Assembly (NCBI GenBank): GCA_000263395.1
Contig: AJXE01000004.1
Span: forward strand, 62,001 to 126,000
Length of the DNA stretch: 64,000 nt
Source of the DNA: Stutzerimonas stutzeri TS44
Lineage (GTDB): Bacteria; Pseudomonadota; Gammaproteobacteria; Pseudomonadales; Pseudomonadaceae
Direction of reading: 5' to 3'
Shown: piece by piece, positions 51,279 to 60,627 of the stretch
How the letters are laid out: each line of letters opens with the position of its first letter
Position numbering within the stretch: position 1 is the first letter of the stretch
The notes under the pieces: generated by a model
What the model saw: only the letters and a program-made list of their open reading frames with translations
What the model was told of the DNA's origin: nothing
Databases searched by the model: none
Program-made: the position numbers and the translations under genes

Positions 51279-51350
51279 TGTTGGATGCCTCGTGCATTTG
51301 ATGACTGGATGGGCATAATGGCTGCCTCGTTTTTCACGCCGGCAGCCTCC

Positions 51351-51971
51351 ATGCAGACAGAATCCCGAAAGGTTCGCGAATTTCGTCGTCGCGAACAGGA
51401 AATACTCGACATTGCCCTGCAGTTGTTTCTCGACCAGGGCGAAGACAGCGTCACGGTGGAGATGATTGCCGATGCCGTCGGAATCGGCAAAGGCACCATC
51501 TACAAGCACTTCAAGTCCAAGGCCGAGATCTACCTGCGGCTGATGCTCGATTATGAGCGTGATCTGAACACGCTGCTCCATTCCGAAGATGTCGACCGCG
51601 ACAAGGAAGCCTTGTCACGGGCCTATTTCGAGTTCCGCATGCGTGATCCGCAGCGCTACCGGCTGTTCGATCGACTGGAAGAAAAGGTCGTGAAGGGCAA
51701 TCAGGTGCCGGAGCTGGTGGAAGAGCTGCATCGCATTCGCGCCTCCAATTTCCAGCGCCTGACGCAACTGATCGAAGGGCGCATCGCCGAAGGCAAACTC
51801 GAAGACGTGCCGCCGTATTTCCACTATTGCGCGGCCTGGGCACTGGTGCATGGCGCAGTGGCGCTGTACCACTCGCCGTTCTGGAGCAACGTGCTCGAGG
51901 ATCAGGAAGGTTTCTTCCAGTTTCTCATGGACATCGGCGTGCGCATGGGCAACAAGCGCAAGCGCGATTGA
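51351..51971 (+). CDS. TetR-family regulator
   Basis: A 206-residue one-component regulator. The N-terminal helix-turn-helix is at residues about 14-58 (REQEILDIALQLFLDQGEDSVTVEMIADAVGIGKGTIYKHF). The C-terminal ligand domain is diverse. The ATG at 51351 (MQTESRKVREFRRREQ) gives a normal N-terminus; an upstream in-frame ATG at 51318 would add eleven residues. It is divergent from the aminotransferase with a short spacer of about 70 bases. In P. aeruginosa the equivalent gene is PA2957. Confidence 0.92.
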   Translation: MQTESRKVREFRRREQEILDIALQLFLDQGEDSVTVEMIADAVGIGKGTIYKHFKSKAEIYLRLMLDYERDLNTLLHSEDVDRDKEALSRAYFEFRMRDPQRYRLFDRLEEKVVKGNQVPELVEELHRIRASNFQRLTQLIEGRIAEGKLEDVPPYFHYCAAWALVHGAVALYHSPFWSNVLEDQEGFFQFLMDIGVRMGNKRKRD

Positions 51972-53329: not shown

Positions 53330-54985
53330 TTACATGTTGGGGTAGTTCGGCCCGCCAGTACCCTCCGGCGCCACCCAGGTGATGTTCTGCGCCGGGTCCT
53401 TGATGTCGCAGGTCTTGCAGTGCACACAGTTCTGCGCGTTGATCTGGAAGCGCTTGCTGCCGTCGTCATTGGTGACGACTTCATACACGCCGGCCGGGCA
53501 GTAGCGTTGTGCCGGCTCGTCGTACAGCGGCAGATTCTTCTCGATCGGAATGTTCGGGTCGGTCAACCGCAGGTGGATCGGCTGGTCTTCCTCGTGGTTG
53601 GTGTTGGAGAGAAACACCGAGCTGAGCTTGTCGAAGCTCAGTTTGCCGTCCGGCTTCGGATACTCGATCTTCTTCGCCTCGGCTGCCGGCTTCAGGCAGG
53701 CATGGTCCGGCTTGGTGTCGTGCAGGGTGAAGGGGATCTTGCCGCCGAAGATGTTCTGGTCGATGAAGTTGAACGCGCCGCCCACCAGTGCGCCCCACTT
53801 GTGGATCGCCGGGCCGAAGTTACGGCTCTTGTACAGTTCGTCGTACAGCCAGCTGTTCTTGAAGCCTTCCTGATAGGCGGTCAGCTCATCGCCGCCCTCG
53901 CGCCCGGCCAGCAGCGCATCGGCAGCCGCCTCGGCGGCGAGCATGCCGGACTTCATTGCCGTATGGCTGCCCTTGATCTTGGCGAAGTTCAGCGTGCCGG
54001 CGTCGCAGCCGATCAGTGCGCCGCCATTGAAGACCATCTTCGGCAGGCAGTTCAGGCCGCCCTTGGCGATGGCGCGGGCACCGTAGGACACGCGCTTGCC
54101 GCCTTCGAGGTACTGCTTGATCACCGGATGATGTTTGTAGCGCTGGAATTCGTCGAACGGCGACAGATGCGGGTTGCTGTAGGACAGATCGACGATCAGG
54201 CCGACCACAACCTGATTGTTCTCCAGGTGATAGAGGAACGAACCTCCGGAGTTCTCGTCGTCCAGCGGCCAGCCGGCGGTGTGTACCACCAGGCCCTGCT
54301 CGTGCTTGGCCGGGTCGATGTCCCACAGCTCCTTGATGCCGATGCCGTAGTGCTGCGGATCGACGTTGGCGTTGAGCTGGAAGCGGTTGATCAACTGCTT
54401 GCCGATATGCCCACGGCAGCCTTCGGCGAACAGGGTGTACTTGGCGCGCAGTTCCATGCCCGGCGTGTACATGCCTTCCTTCGGGTTGCCCTCGCGATCG
54501 ACACCCAGGTCGCCGGTGACGATGCCGTGTACGATACCGTGCTCGTCGATCAGCGCTTCCTGGGCAGCGAAGCCCGGATAGATCTCGACGCCGAGATTTT
54601 CGGCCTGCTGCGCCAGCCAGCGGCACAGGTTGCCGAGCGAAATGATGTAGTTGCCTTCGTTATGCATGGTCTTGGGAACCAGTGCGTTGGGCAGCTTGCT
54701 GGCGGCGTCAGCGTTCTTGAACAGATAGATGTCATCGCGCTTGACCGGAGTGTTCAGCGGGGCGCCAAGCTCTTTCCAATCGGGGAACAGTTCGTCCAGC
54801 GCACGTGGCTCGAAGACTGCGCCAGAGAGAATGTGGGCGCCTACTTCGGAACCCTTTTCGACGACGCATACACTGATTTCCTGACCGGCATCGGCGGCTC
54901 TCTGCTTCAGGCGGCAGGCTGCGGACAGGCCTGCAGGGCCGGCGCCGACGATGACAACGTCGAATTCCATGTATTCGCGTTCCAT
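53330..54985 (-). CDS. etfD: Electron-transfer flavoprotein:ubiquinone oxidoreductase
   Basis: A 551-residue FAD/4Fe-4S membrane-bound enzyme that takes electrons from ETF and reduces ubiquinone, linking fatty acid and amino acid oxidation to respiration. FAD motif: VIVGAGPAGLSAACRLKQ near residue 10. The C-terminal ferredoxin part has YCPAGVYEV and NCVHCKTCDI for 4Fe-4S. Length is standard. It is divergent from etfBA with a shared control region, and both -35 boxes flank a PsrA-like site. Confidence 0.98.
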   Translation of the reverse strand: MEREYMEFDVVIVGAGPAGLSAACRLKQRAADAGQEISVCVVEKGSEVGAHILSGAVFEPRALDELFPDWKELGAPLNTPVKRDDIYLFKNADAASKLPNALVPKTMHNEGNYIISLGNLCRWLAQQAENLGVEIYPGFAAQEALIDEHGIVHGIVTGDLGVDREGNPKEGMYTPGMELRAKYTLFAEGCRGHIGKQLINRFQLNANVDPQHYGIGIKELWDIDPAKHEQGLVVHTAGWPLDDENSGGSFLYHLENNQVVVGLIVDLSYSNPHLSPFDEFQRYKHHPVIKQYLEGGKRVSYGARAIAKGGLNCLPKMVFNGGALIGCDAGTLNFAKIKGSHTAMKSGMLAAEAAADALLAGREGGDELTAYQEGFKNSWLYDELYKSRNFGPAIHKWGALVGGAFNFIDQNIFGGKIPFTLHDTKPDHACLKPAAEAKKIEYPKPDGKLSFDKLSSVFLSNTNHEEDQPIHLRLTDPNIPIEKNLPLYDEPAQRYCPAGVYEVVTNDDGSKRFQINAQNCVHCKTCDIKDPAQNITWVAPEGTGGPNYPNM

Positions 54986-55064
54986 TGGGCTATCTCCTAG
55001 TCAAGGCTTGTTTGTTATGTGAGTGGCAAGGGCGCAATCGTTCCCTGATCGAACCGGCCGGCGC

Positions 55065-55093
55065 ATTATATATAGACACCCGATTCGGTCCAA
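55065..55093 (-). promoter_or_regulatory. Predicted sigma70 promoter of etfD
   Basis: Minus strand: TTGGAC (55088-55093), 17 bases, TATAAT (55065-55070). The start is expected near 55058, with a leader of about 73 bases to the etfD ATG. Confidence 0.7.
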
Positions 55094-55094
55094 T

Positions 55095-55109
55095 ACAAAC
55101 GTTTGTTTG
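55095..55109. promoter_or_regulatory. PsrA-type operator between etfD and etfBA
   Basis: CAAAC-GTTT-GTTTG (55096-55109) fits the PsrA consensus C/GAAAC-N2-4-GTTTG/C, and its first part also forms a perfect 12-base palindrome (55095-55106). It lies between the two divergent promoters, touching the etfBA -35 and two bases from the etfD -35. PsrA is a TetR repressor released by long-chain fatty acids and is reported to control the etf genes in P. aeruginosa. psrA itself is not in this window. Confidence 0.65.
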
Positions 55110-55133
55110 AATTTTTCCGAAGCCTGTTAGAAT
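55106..55133 (+). promoter_or_regulatory. Predicted sigma70 promoter of etfBA
   Basis: TTTGAA (55106-55111), 16 bases, TAGAAT (55128-55133). The start near 55140 leaves a leader of about 170 bases before etfB, in which a stem (TTGACC/GGTCAA around 55172-55198) can form. The etfD-etfB spacer is 327 bases (54986-55312) and holds no supported gene. Confidence 0.6.
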
Positions 55134-55312
55134 CGCCCGCACCGCAAGGTTGTGACGGGGCATATGCGTTGTTGACCCCATCCGCAGCCTGCGGTCAAGA
55201 TACGAACGGTTTGCGCTCGCCGAACGGGCAAATGACTGCGACCCCAGAGCCTTCGCGCCGGGTTCGGTTCGCCTCGGCGAAATTCTATTCACCGGAGAGT
55301 AACGAGGAATCC

Positions 55313-56062
55313 ATGAAGGTTCTTGTAGCTGTCAAACGAGTGGTCGACTACAACGTCAAGGTTCGCGTCAAGGCGGACAACTCCGGCGTCGACCTCGCCA
55401 ACGTCAAGATGTCGATGAACCCCTTCTGCGAAATCGCCGTGGAAGAAGCCGTGCGCCTGAAAGAGAAGGGTGTGGCGAGTGAAATCGTTGTCGTCACCAT
55501 CGGTCCGGCCGCTGCCCAGGAGCAGCTGCGCACCGCGCTGGCGCTGGGCGCCGACCGCGCCGTGCTGGTCGAATCCGCCGATGAGCTGAGCTCCCTGGCC
55601 GTCGCCAAGCTGCTCAAGGCCGTGGTCGACAAGGAACAGCCGCAGCTGGTGATTCTCGGCAAGCAGGCCATCGACAGCGACAACAACCAGACCGGCCAGA
55701 TGCTGGCCGCGCTGACCGGCTACGCCCAGGGCACCTTCGCCTCCAAGGTGGAAGTGGCTGGCGACAAGGTCAACGTCACCCGTGAGATCGACGGCGGCCT
55801 GCAGACCGTCGCGCTGAGCCTGCCGGCGATCGTGACCACCGACCTGCGCCTGAACGAGCCGCGCTACGCGTCGCTGCCGAACATCATGAAGGCCAAGAAG
55901 AAGCCGCTGGAAACCCTGACCCCGGATGCACTGGGCGTCACCACCGGCTCCACCGTGAAGACCCTGAAGGTCGAAGCGCCGGCTGCCCGCAGCGCCGGTA
56001 TCAAGGTCAAGTCCGTGGCTGAACTGGTCGAGAAACTGAAGAACGAGGCGAAGGTAATCTAA
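55313..56062 (+). CDS. etfB: Electron-transfer flavoprotein beta subunit
   Basis: A 249-residue protein ([20 protein letters not shown]). With EtfA it forms the heterodimer that receives electrons from acyl-CoA dehydrogenases; EtfB binds AMP. Conserved parts: [35 protein letters not shown] (AMP-binding region) and [16 protein letters not shown], the dehydrogenase recognition loop near residue 190. The ATG at 55313 is used; a longer upstream frame covers the promoter. Its TAA overlaps no gene; etfA begins directly after. Confidence 0.98.
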
Positions 56063-56992
56063 ATGACTATCCTGGTTATCGCTGAACACAACAACGCCGT
56101 CCTCGCGGCCGCGACCCTGAACACCGTGGCGGCAGCCGCGAAAATCGGTGGCGACATCCATGTGCTGGTCGCTGGCTCCGGCTGTGGCGCCATTGGCGAG
56201 GCAGCTGCCAAGATCGCCGGCGTTGCCAAGGTGCTGGTTGCCGACGATGCCGCTTATGCCCATCAGCTGCCGGAAAACGTCGCGCCGCTGATCGCAGGCC
56301 TCGCCGCCAACTACAGCCACGTGCTGGCCGCCGCCACCACTAATGGCAAGAACTTCCTGCCGCGCGTCGCTGCGCTGCTGGACGTCGACCAGATCTCCGA
56401 GATCACGTCGGTCGAGAGCGCCGACACCTTCAAGCGCCCGATCTACGCCGGCAACGCCATCGCCACTGTGCAGTCCAGCGCAGCGATCAAGGTGATTACC
56501 GTGCGCAGCACCGGCTTCGACGCAGTCAGCGGCGAAGGTGGCTCGGCTGCCATCGAGCAGATCTCCGGCAGCGGTGACGCAGGCAAATCCGCCTTCGTCG
56601 GCGAAGAACTGGCCAAGTCCGACCGTCCCGAGCTGACCGCCGCCAAGATCGTCGTTTCCGGCGGTCGCGGCATGCAGAACGGTGAGAACTTCAAGCACCT
56701 GTATTCGCTGGCCGACAAGCTCGGCGCGGCGGTCGGTGCCTCGCGCGCCGCGGTCGACGCCGGTTTCGTGCCCAACGACATGCAGGTCGGTCAGACCGGC
56801 AAGATCGTCGCGCCGCAGCTGTACATCGCCGTTGGTATTTCCGGTGCCATTCAGCACCTGGCCGGCATGAAGGACTCCAAGGTGATCGTTGCGATCAACA
56901 AGGACGAGGAAGCGCCGATCTTCCAGGTTGCCGACTACGGCCTGGTGGGTGATCTGTTCGAGATCGTGCCCGAGCTGGAAAAGTTGGTCTGA
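56063..56992 (+). CDS. etfA: Electron-transfer flavoprotein alpha subunit
   Basis: A 309-residue FAD-binding subunit. The C-terminal FAD domain has [47 protein letters not shown] and [24 protein letters not shown], as in all EtfA. The gene starts directly after etfB. It ends 18 bases before a strong terminator. Confidence 0.98.
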
Positions 56993-58300: not shown

Positions 58301-59103
58301 ATCGGCTTCGGCGGCAGGCGGTGGTCTGCATCCTGCTGGGCGGGCTGGCCGGCTGCGCCAATCCCGACCTCGAACAGCAGCTTTCCCAGGCAGCAGAGAG
58401 CTACACCAAGGCCAGCAGCGACACGCGCATCCAGCGCGGTGCGCCGAAGGACGTCGTGCGCGCTGGCGAATCGCTGGCGCGCGCGCAGCGCTTCGCCGAG
58501 TTCTGGGGCGGCGCCGAGGACGCCCTGCATTATTCCTACCTGAGCCTCAGCTACAGCGAGATCGCCCGGCAGCACGGTAGGTTGCTCGACAACCAGCAGC
58601 GCATCGTACAACTGCAGATGGAACGCCAGCGCCTGCGCGACATGCTGCGCGACGCCCGCCTGCTGAGTGCGCAGCAGCCGGGCAACTGGGGGGATGACCA
58701 GATCATCAGCATGGCGGCGACCGAGACCGATCGCGGGCTGGTGATGACGCTGGGCGATGTGCTGTTCCGTGCCGACAGCGACGCGCTGGGCCGCGGGGCC
58801 AATCGCACGCTGCTCAAGCTGGCGCATTTTCTCGAACTCAACCCGCAGCGACGGGTGCGCATCGAGGGCTATACCGACAGCCGCGGTGATACCGAGCGCA
58901 ACCTTGCGCTATCGCAGGCGCGCGCCGCGGCCGTCGCCGAGGTGCTGACCGATCTGGGCATCGCTTCGCAGCGCATCGAGATACGCGGTTACGGCGAAGC
59001 CTTCCCGGTGGCGGAAAACGCTTCGGCGCGCGGTCGTGCGCAGAATCGGCGTGTGGAAATCCTCTTTTCCGATGCGCAGGGCGAGCTGGGACCTGATCGC
59101 TGA
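58297..59103 (+). CDS. OmpA-family lipoprotein
   Basis: A 268-residue protein with a lipoprotein signal (lipobox LAGC, Cys about residue 22) and a helical stretch. The C-terminal OmpA-like domain (residues about 145-255) has RVRIEGYTDSRGDTERNLALS and GRAQNRRVEIL, the peptidoglycan-binding pattern. The GTG start overlaps the DUF4398 gene. Together with it the pair probably tethers outer membrane to peptidoglycan. Its stop lies inside a GAAAC-N4-GTTTC palindrome. Confidence 0.9.
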   Translation: MNRLRRQAVVCILLGGLAGCANPDLEQQLSQAAESYTKASSDTRIQRGAPKDVVRAGESLARAQRFAEFWGGAEDALHYSYLSLSYSEIARQHGRLLDNQQRIVQLQMERQRLRDMLRDARLLSAQQPGNWGDDQIISMAATETDRGLVMTLGDVLFRADSDALGRGANRTLLKLAHFLELNPQRRVRIEGYTDSRGDTERNLALSQARAAAVAEVLTDLGIASQRIEIRGYGEAFPVAENASARGRAQNRRVEILFSDAQGELGPDR

Positions 59104-59115
59104 AACATCTGTTTC
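59102..59115. promoter_or_regulatory. Second PsrA-like palindrome
   Basis: GAAAC-ATCT-GTTTC at 59102-59115 matches the PsrA consensus. It overlaps the stop codon of the OmpA gene and lies 82 bases before the MocR-type gene. About one such match is expected by chance in a window of this size, so support is weak. Confidence 0.25.
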
Positions 59116-59196: not shown

Positions 59197-60627
59197 ATGA
59201 CCAATCTGTTGCTCTATCAGCGCATCGCTCAACAGCTGGCCGAGGATATCCGGCGCGGCGTCTATCGCCCCGGGGAGCGCGTGCCCTCGGTGCGCAAGAT
59301 GAGCCAGCAGCTCAACGTCAGCCACGCGACGGTGCTGCAGGCCTACGCCAACCTGGAAGACCAGGGCATGATCCGCGCCCGTCCGCAGTCGGGCTTCTAC
59401 GTGCACCAGACGCCGATGCTGACCGCGCCGACGCCCGATATCGCGCAGGTCGAGCGGCCCACGCTGGTCACCCGCAGCAGCATCATCAACCAGGTGCTCA
59501 ACGAGTCGCGCCGCGAGGGCCTGATTCCGCTGGGCGCTGCCGTTCCGCACGTCGACTACCTGCCGGTGCGCGCGCTGCACCAGCAGTTGGCCAAGGTGAC
59601 CCGCTTCCACAGCCCGCGGGCCTTCAGCTACATGTTCAGCCCGGGTTACGAACCGCTGCGCCGACAGGTGGCGATCCGCATGCGCGATGCCGGGGTGCTG
59701 GTCGATCCGGCCGAAGTGGTGATCACCCACGGCTGTGTCGACGCGCTGCAGATGTCGTTGCGCGTGCTGACCCGGCCCGGCGATCTGATCGCCGCCGAGT
59801 CGCCGACCTATTACGGCCTGCTGCAACTGGCGGACCTGCTGGGCCTGAAGGTGATCGAGATTCCCAGCGACCCGGATACCGGCATGAGCCTCGAGGCGCT
59901 GCAGCTGGCCGCCAGCCAGTGGCCGATCAAGGCGCTGGTGCTGACCGCGCGGCTGAGCAACCCGCTGGGCGTGAGCATGCCCGACAGCCGGCAGAAGCAG
60001 CTGCTCAACCTGGCGTCACGCTTCGACATCCAGATCGTCGAGGACGATATCTACGGCGAGCTGATGTTCGAGCAGGGCCAGTACAAGGCGCTCAAGTCCA
60101 ATGACCACGAAGGCCGGGTGATCTATTGCTCGAGTTTTTCCAAGACCCTGTCGCCGGGTGTGCGCATCGGCTGGATCATCGCCGGACGGCACCAGGCCGA
60201 GGTGCAGCGGCTGCAGACGTTCAGCACGCATTCGGCGTGCAGCGTGACGCAGATGGGTGTGGCCGCCTATCTGGAGAATGGCGGCTATGACCGCCACCTG
60301 CGCTTCATCCGGCAGGAATACCGCAAGAACCTGTCGGCGTTCCAGTTGGCGGTGCAGCGTTACTTTCCCGAAGGCACGCAGATGACCCGGCCCAAGGGCA
60401 ACTTCATTCTCTGGGTCAGCCTGCCGGCGCGGGTCAACACCAAGGACCTGCAGGTGCGTGCGCTGGCGCAGGGCATCAGCATCGCGCCGGGGCTGATCTT
60501 CAGTAACACTGAGCAGTTCAACCACTGCATCCGGCTGAACTGCGGCCTGCCCTGGAACCGCGAGACAGAGCGGGCGCTGAGTACGCTCGGCGCGCTGGCC
60601 GTCGAGCTTTGCCGGGAGGCACAATAG
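59197..60627 (+). CDS. MocR/GntR-type transcriptional regulator with aminotransferase domain
   Basis: A 476-residue fusion: an N-terminal winged helix-turn-helix (residues 1-75, RRGVYRPGERVPSVRKMSQQ) and a class I aminotransferase domain (residues about 100-470). The PLP Lys is near residue 316 in CSSFSKTLSPGVRIGW, with ESPTYYGLLQL and TARLSNPLG nearby. MocR proteins sense PLP or an amino-acid aldimine and regulate adjacent genes. No divergent partner is found here, so the gene may regulate itself or a distant operon. Confidence 0.94.
   Translation: MTNLLLYQRIAQQLAEDIRRGVYRPGERVPSVRKMSQQLNVSHATVLQAYANLEDQGMIRARPQSGFYVHQTPMLTAPTPDIAQVERPTLVTRSSIINQVLNESRREGLIPLGAAVPHVDYLPVRALHQQLAKVTRFHSPRAFSYMFSPGYEPLRRQVAIRMRDAGVLVDPAEVVITHGCVDALQMSLRVLTRPGDLIAAESPTYYGLLQLADLLGLKVIEIPSDPDTGMSLEALQLAASQWPIKALVLTARLSNPLGVSMPDSRQKQLLNLASRFDIQIVEDDIYGELMFEQGQYKALKSNDHEGRVIYCSSFSKTLSPGVRIGWIIAGRHQAEVQRLQTFSTHSACSVTQMGVAAYLENGGYDRHLRFIRQEYRKNLSAFQLAVQRYFPEGTQMTRPKGNFILWVSLPARVNTKDLQVRALAQGISIAPGLIFSNTEQFNHCIRLNCGLPWNRETERALSTLGALAVELCREAQ

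Follow-up and report, generated by a model that had tools for sequence, protein, structure and literature searches.

A putative PsrA operator between the divergent etfD and etfBA genes, and a conserved second promoter-like element upstream of etfB

The intergenic region separating etfD from etfBA in the window (the whole stretch of DNA that was analysed, 64,000 nucleotides or 64 kb) very probably holds, judging from its sequence, a real operator for PsrA at 55096-55109, PsrA being a regulator of the TetR family that senses long-chain fatty acids. As an explanation of the whole arrangement we favour, with a probability of roughly 0.6, a PsrA operator that gates etfD and one etfB promoter, P1, while etfBA is kept going from a second element, P2. 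The operator type and the regulon are both already known, and this locus adds one more case. Electrons taken from acyl-CoA dehydrogenases reach the respiratory chain through ETF and ETF-ubiquinone oxidoreductase, and EtfBA serves other dehydrogenases too. The features of the locus are the following:

51345-51971, plus strand: TetR-family regulator, probable PvrA orthologue (PDB 7w2o, E 1.8e-121; Pfam TetR_N)
53330-54985, minus strand: etfD, ETF-ubiquinone oxidoreductase, 551 aa (Pfam PF05187, PF21162)
55065-55093, minus strand: predicted etfD promoter, TTGGAC-17-TATAAT (or TGGACC-16-TATAAT), found by eye and by a mechanical scan
55096-55109: putative PsrA-type operator CAAACGTTTGTTTG (CAAAC-N4-GTTTG), within the conserved element CCAATACAAACGTTTGTTTGAAT (55090-55112)
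55106-55133, plus strand: predicted etfB promoter P1, TTTGAA-16 (or TTGAAT-15)-TAGAAT with an extended -10, found by eye
55172-55201, plus strand: etfB promoter-like element P2, TTGACC-18-CAAGAT, found by conservation of its pattern in loci with or without the box
55313-56062, plus strand: etfB, ETF beta subunit, 249 aa (Pfam PF01012)
56063-56992, plus strand: etfA, ETF alpha subunit, 309 aa (Pfam PF01012, PF00766)

The box CAAACGTTTGTTTG spells CAAAC-GTTT-GTTTG and matches exactly the C/GAAAC-N2-4-GTTTG/C palindrome of PsrA operators. Over the 64 kb window a motif with at most one mismatch is unremarkable (1 match versus 0.94 in shuffles), but it stands out at this site, where the exact box appears on average 0.0004 times in 5000 dinucleotide shuffles of the etf intergenic. 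Its neighbours are the divergently transcribed etfD, on the minus strand, and etfBA, on the plus strand. A gap of 2 bp separates it from the -35 of etfD, and it shares 3-4 bp with the -35 of P1; it therefore abuts or overlaps the cores of both flanking promoters, as is expected of a shared divergent operator. Given the gap on one side and the overlap on the other, the description of the box in the initial annotation as lying exactly between the two -35 boxes does not hold. A search for known RNA families in 54950-55400 returned none at E up to 1.

To follow the box across genomes, 170 etf loci were gathered, L001 (a duplicate of L005) having been left out first, and 14 were dropped where etfB was absent from the fetched stretch or not divergent, which left 112 loci of the window's family (110 distinct after merging exact duplicates) and 44 from outside it. 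The loci were picked by EtfD similarity, and some by genus, so that the fractions describe this sample: within the family, 88 of the 110 distinct intergenics between divergent etfD and etfB have the exact box (0.07 in shuffles), as do 18 of the 44 from outside (0.03 in shuffles), and nine of the 22 family intergenics without the exact box have one with a single mismatch. The conservation in close relatives that the initial annotation proposed as a check is indeed found, as a 21-base element, allowing up to two mismatches and counted anywhere in the genome, occurs in 54 of 56 genomes of the genus and in 223 of 298 of the family; the two genus genomes missing it are 71% and 73% complete.

Within the family, the register of the box is not clean. 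GTTT fills the spacer in 82 of the 88 boxes, less variation than expected of a free N4, and a spacer of 0 (CAAACGTTTG) is as common as a spacer of 4 (89 versus 88 of 110). Seven g27 loci favour spacer 0, as they keep CAAACGTTTG while their right end reads GTTTA, the last G being lost. The CG-centred CAAACGTTTG is disfavoured as the true site by the g39 and g28 loci (four), L032 and L136, where CAAAC-N4-GTTTG has a GATC, GCTC or GTTC middle that breaks the CG-centred palindrome, and by 9 of the 18 loci from other families that have the box, where N4 but not N0 is kept. We favour the N4 register because many different middles occur outside the family, and because it is the motif printed for PsrA in the available portion of a review (PMC13104628). 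Two overlapping boxes offset by 4 bp, CAAACAAACGTTTGTTTG, are found in nine etf loci from outside the family, eight of them from Marinobacter (L079-L082, L084, L087, L092, L100 and L165 in all); in the window's element, the left one of these two boxes has two mismatches.

The genome encodes one PF17939 protein, PsrA, whose gene lies away from the etf locus and adjoins lexA. Its residues 1-69 are identical to the chain of PDB entry 2fbq, the DNA-binding domains thus matching; this entry, titled 'probable transcriptional regulator', is the only solved relative of PsrA at E 1e-10, and we take it to be PA3006, the PsrA of P. aeruginosa. Genome-wide, the exact motif is found at 5 places versus 1 for the reversed pattern, and the degenerate SAAACN4GTTTS at 12 places versus 5 in the reversed control. 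Five of these 12 places lie at known types of PsrA targets, namely etf, psrA (twice), rpoS and an acyl-CoA dehydrogenase gene; the remaining ones may be due to chance, since the reversed control also gives 5. The start of psrA (L116) is preceded by two boxes, GAAACGTAGGTTTC and CAAACAGTTGTTTG, 13 bp apart, whereas etf has a single box, and such paired PsrA-type boxes upstream of psrA recur in 9 of 20 relatives examined. The rpoS site is located upstream of rpoS and inside an nlpD-like gene (nlpD is the best match, below its cut-off), and the acyl-CoA dehydrogenase gene with the motif upstream is found two genes from bioD and presumably resembles PA0506, given the gene order. The labels lexA, rpoS and bioD were assigned by eye and then tested. 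In the available text of the review, the operators of psrA and rpoS follow C/GAAAC-N4-GTTTG/C, and the footprint core at rpoS is TTCAAACN4GTTTGAA (PMC13104628); both sites exist in this genome too, and the etf box differs from them in being single, near-palindromic in two registers and placed in a divergent promoter region. The motif itself, its conservation, the presence of psrA in the genome and the same motif at known PsrA targets thus bear out the proposal of a PsrA-type operator made in the initial annotation. Elsewhere in the window, GAAACATCTGTTTC at 59102-59115 also matches the PsrA consensus, approximately 82 bp upstream of a gene for a GntR/aminotransferase (MocR-type) regulator (59197-60627), a match that could be due to chance, given the 5 places that the reversed control yields genome-wide.

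The two divergent promoters with spacers of 17 and 16 bases that had been described around the box are both recognisable by eye, but P1 fails a mechanical scan. The predicted etfD promoter consists of a -35 TTGGAC (55093-55088), a 17-nt spacer and a -10 TATAAT (55070-55065), and is the only etfD promoter recognised beside the box. The scan, with spacers of 16-18 nt, returned this promoter only, in the form TGGACC-16-TATAAT (1 found versus 0.4 in shuffles). P1 would comprise TTTGAA at 55106-55111 or TTGAAT at 55107-55112, TAGAAT at 55128-55133, and a TG at 55125-55126. Taking the best register, at least 9 of 12 consensus matches are reached by the etfD promoter in 86 of the 88 distinct box-bearing family intergenics, and by P1 in only 41 of the 88. 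The weakness of P1 in these counts and in the scan, the unclean register of the box and the five places of the reversed control all count against our preferred explanation. In genus g30, which contains the closest match to 2fbq, the -10 and -35 of etfD are unlike those of the window in 12 of 13 fetched genomes (L209-L218, L220 and L221), the box and P2 being retained. A terminator-like hairpin with a T-containing tail is found in the etfB leader at 55268-55281 (1 found versus 0.4 in shuffles).

Further downstream lies an element absent from the initial annotation, P2, with TTGACC at 55172-55177 and CAAGAT at 55196-55201, 18 nt apart. It was first revealed by a looser pattern (TTGAC, A at position 2 and T at position 6 of the -10), which matches 4.62 of 110 intergenics in shuffles. 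The stricter TTGACC-N17/18-CANNAT is present in every one of the 110 distinct family intergenics, among them the 22 that lack the exact box, against a shuffle mean of 0.02 of 110, and in 18 of the 44 intergenics from outside the family. The distance from box to P2, measured from start to start, is 76 bp in the window and usually 73-77 bp; it is 69-77 bp in 82 of the 88 box-bearing loci and 208-248 bp in the other six. CAAGAT is only a 3/6 match to the consensus hexamer, and P2 is a candidate promoter. Its conservation in every family intergenic speaks against the idea that no other promoter escapes the operator. As P2 should lie beyond the reach of one PsrA dimer, gating by PsrA is plausible for etfD, and for etfBA only in part; closure by one dimer, as suggested earlier for both promoters, is plausible from the geometry at etfD and at P1, though not at the conserved P2. 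If P2 is active, a single PsrA dimer could not shut etfBA, and EtfBA need not be shut.

In the mechanism that we infer from this arrangement, a PsrA dimer over 55096-55109 would, when fatty acid is lacking, sterically keep RNA polymerase off both P1 and the etfD promoter, and a long-chain fatty acid would induce both by releasing PsrA. Expression of etfBA would continue from P2, outside the reach of one dimer, and EtfD would be gated more tightly than EtfBA. If etfD indeed has one promoter that PsrA can reach and etfBA an extra conserved element, unequal induction by fatty acids is expected, which would offer a cheap test of the published disagreement on the sign of PsrA at etfD.

Control of the etf genes by PsrA in P. 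aeruginosa, which the initial annotation mentions, was reported in 2005 according to the accessible passages of two papers (PMC13104628, PMC7641640). They are relevant to the window, since its box, both of its promoters, their spacing and P2 recur in a genome with a PsrA 98% identical to 2fbq. The P. aeruginosa PA2952-PA2951 (etfBA) and PA2953 (etfD) units share with the window the genes, the type of regulator and the motif; the review, in its available text, gives opposite signs for the two units, and P2 and the box-free genera are observations of the present analysis. Literature searches on a shared single-site geometry at etf gave secondary mentions only, and we do not claim this geometry as new. 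Regulons predicted by Kazakov et al. (2009), as cited in passages of PMC5343134 and PMC7641640, place PsrA over fatty-acid degradation genes across gammaproteobacteria. For A. vinelandii, PsrA was reported, in the excerpt at hand, to have no effect on beta-oxidation genes. A P. aeruginosa sRNA of 117 nt, PA2952.1 (PMC9308961, PMC5870498, both in excerpt), may be transcribed from the etf intergenic, judging by its number, which falls between PA2952 and PA2953.

Published secondary reports conflict on the sign of PsrA control at etfD. According to the passage concerned in the 2026 review (PMC13104628), PsrA represses PA0506 and PA2952-PA2951 but activates PA2953 in the work of Kojic et al. (2005). 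PMC7641640, again in the relevant passage, refers to that work for negative regulation of the Etf pathway, and lists EtfA and EtfD as both increased on cold shock, upon which psrA mRNA decreases. In the available text of a preprint, a model trained with over 1000 array datasets puts PA0506, PA3006 (psrA), PA3014 and PA2953 into one correlated set, to which PA2952 does not belong (PMC10473638); PA0506 and fadBA5 are called PsrA-repressed in a passage of PMC11890623. Finally, a proteome obtained after treatment with a bacterioferritin inhibitor gives, in the portion available, EtfA -1.25, EtfB -1.17 and PA2953 +0.58 (PMC13366587). The correlated set without PA2952 counts for our preferred explanation, while the activation of PA2953 given in the review and the fall of EtfA and EtfB with a rise of PA2953 count against it, within what these excerpts tell.

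A single operator might act with opposite signs, PsrA repressing etfBA through its overlap with the -35 of P1 and activating etfD, either by contact with the polymerase or by removing a competing polymerase from P1, the promoters being back to back. This fits the position of the box just upstream of the etfD -35, with its centre at about -44 from the predicted start, and its asymmetry (2 bp from one -35, overlapping the other), as well as what the review says of Kojic et al. (2005), the opposite shifts of EtfBA and PA2953 within one proteome (PMC13366587), and the activation of rpoS by PsrA reported from the same motif, all three as given in the parts of the sources at hand. Yet most of the etfD -35 would be covered by a footprint of approximately 25 bp such as that described for rpoS in the text available from PMC13104628. 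The co-expression set places PA2953 among PsrA-repressed genes (PMC10473638, in excerpt), and the negative effect on the Etf pathway and the joint rise of EtfA and EtfD in the passages of PMC7641640 point the other way, so that we consider this alternative unlikely. Its extended form, where an asymmetric PsrA dimer blocks P1 and favours etfD (directly or via polymerase removal) and P2 supplies EtfBA, appears distinctly improbable. Should the two outputs be opposite, the box would set the EtfD:EtfBA ratio and not simply switch the genes on or off; its loss in some genera would then have removed a balancing step.

The window also encodes another candidate regulator, the TetR-family gene at 51345-51971, which we take, based on gene order, to be the orthologue of PA2957; the PDB entry 7w2o names no PvrA. 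PA2957 is PvrA, which responds to acyl-CoA according to the literature. The presence of a pvrA-like gene in the window and this response to acyl-CoA would make PvrA the first candidate if another TetR-family regulator were to bind the box, an explanation that seems to us very improbable: the reported PvrA motif (CGGTCA/TGACCG) is unlike the box, neither of the genomes G123 (g31, exact box) and G070 (g35, box with one mismatch) shows a pvrA match at E 1e-30, and pvrA occurs without the box in g26 genomes. Motif and lack of co-occurrence led us to reject PvrA as the binder of the box. PvrA might instead act at P2 through TGACC...GGTCA arms, which would make this region a divergon with two fatty-acid sensors. 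Many loci carry TTGACCG...CGGTCAA in P2, that is, both reported PvrA hexamers, and the window has the right one (CGGTCA) exact and the left one with one mismatch. However, genomes without a pvrA match can still have the GGTCA arm (at the g35 locus and at one of three g38 loci), and the arm is absent from the examined g28, g39 and g26 loci, from genomes with such a match. Furthermore, TTGACC-N12..17-GGTCAA has no other place in this genome and is thus not a recurring operator. PvrA as a binder of P2 is weakened by its motif and by this lack of co-occurrence; we regard it as highly doubtful, and since the hexamers in P2 do not track pvrA across the genera examined, we do not claim control by PvrA.

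Coming back to the PsrA operator, its regulator is more widespread in the family than the etf element. PF17939 is found in 293 of 298 family genomes, among them all 223 with the 21-base element; the five genomes without PF17939 also lack the element, though only one of them is at least 90% complete. The element is absent from all 37 genomes of genus g26 (PF17939 in 36 of 37) and from all four of genus g38 (PF17939 in 4/4), and is found in one of eight genomes of genus g31 (PF17939 in 8/8). We fetched the psrA upstream regions from nine g26 genomes, three g31 genomes (including G123, which has the etf box) and eight others, and all 20 retain at least one C/GAAAC-N4-GTTTC/G box. In such genera, psrA and its own operator are thus kept even where there is no etf box. 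As the box is present outside the family, it was probably lost in these genera and not gained elsewhere. Genera with psrA and its self-operators but without the etf box would form a natural comparison for a gene pair leaving a regulon. The etfD-like copies fetched from g31, g32 and g38 mostly lack the box, and the examined genomes of these three groups harbour two or three strong etfD-like copies (in one of them, the second copy is only a fragment).
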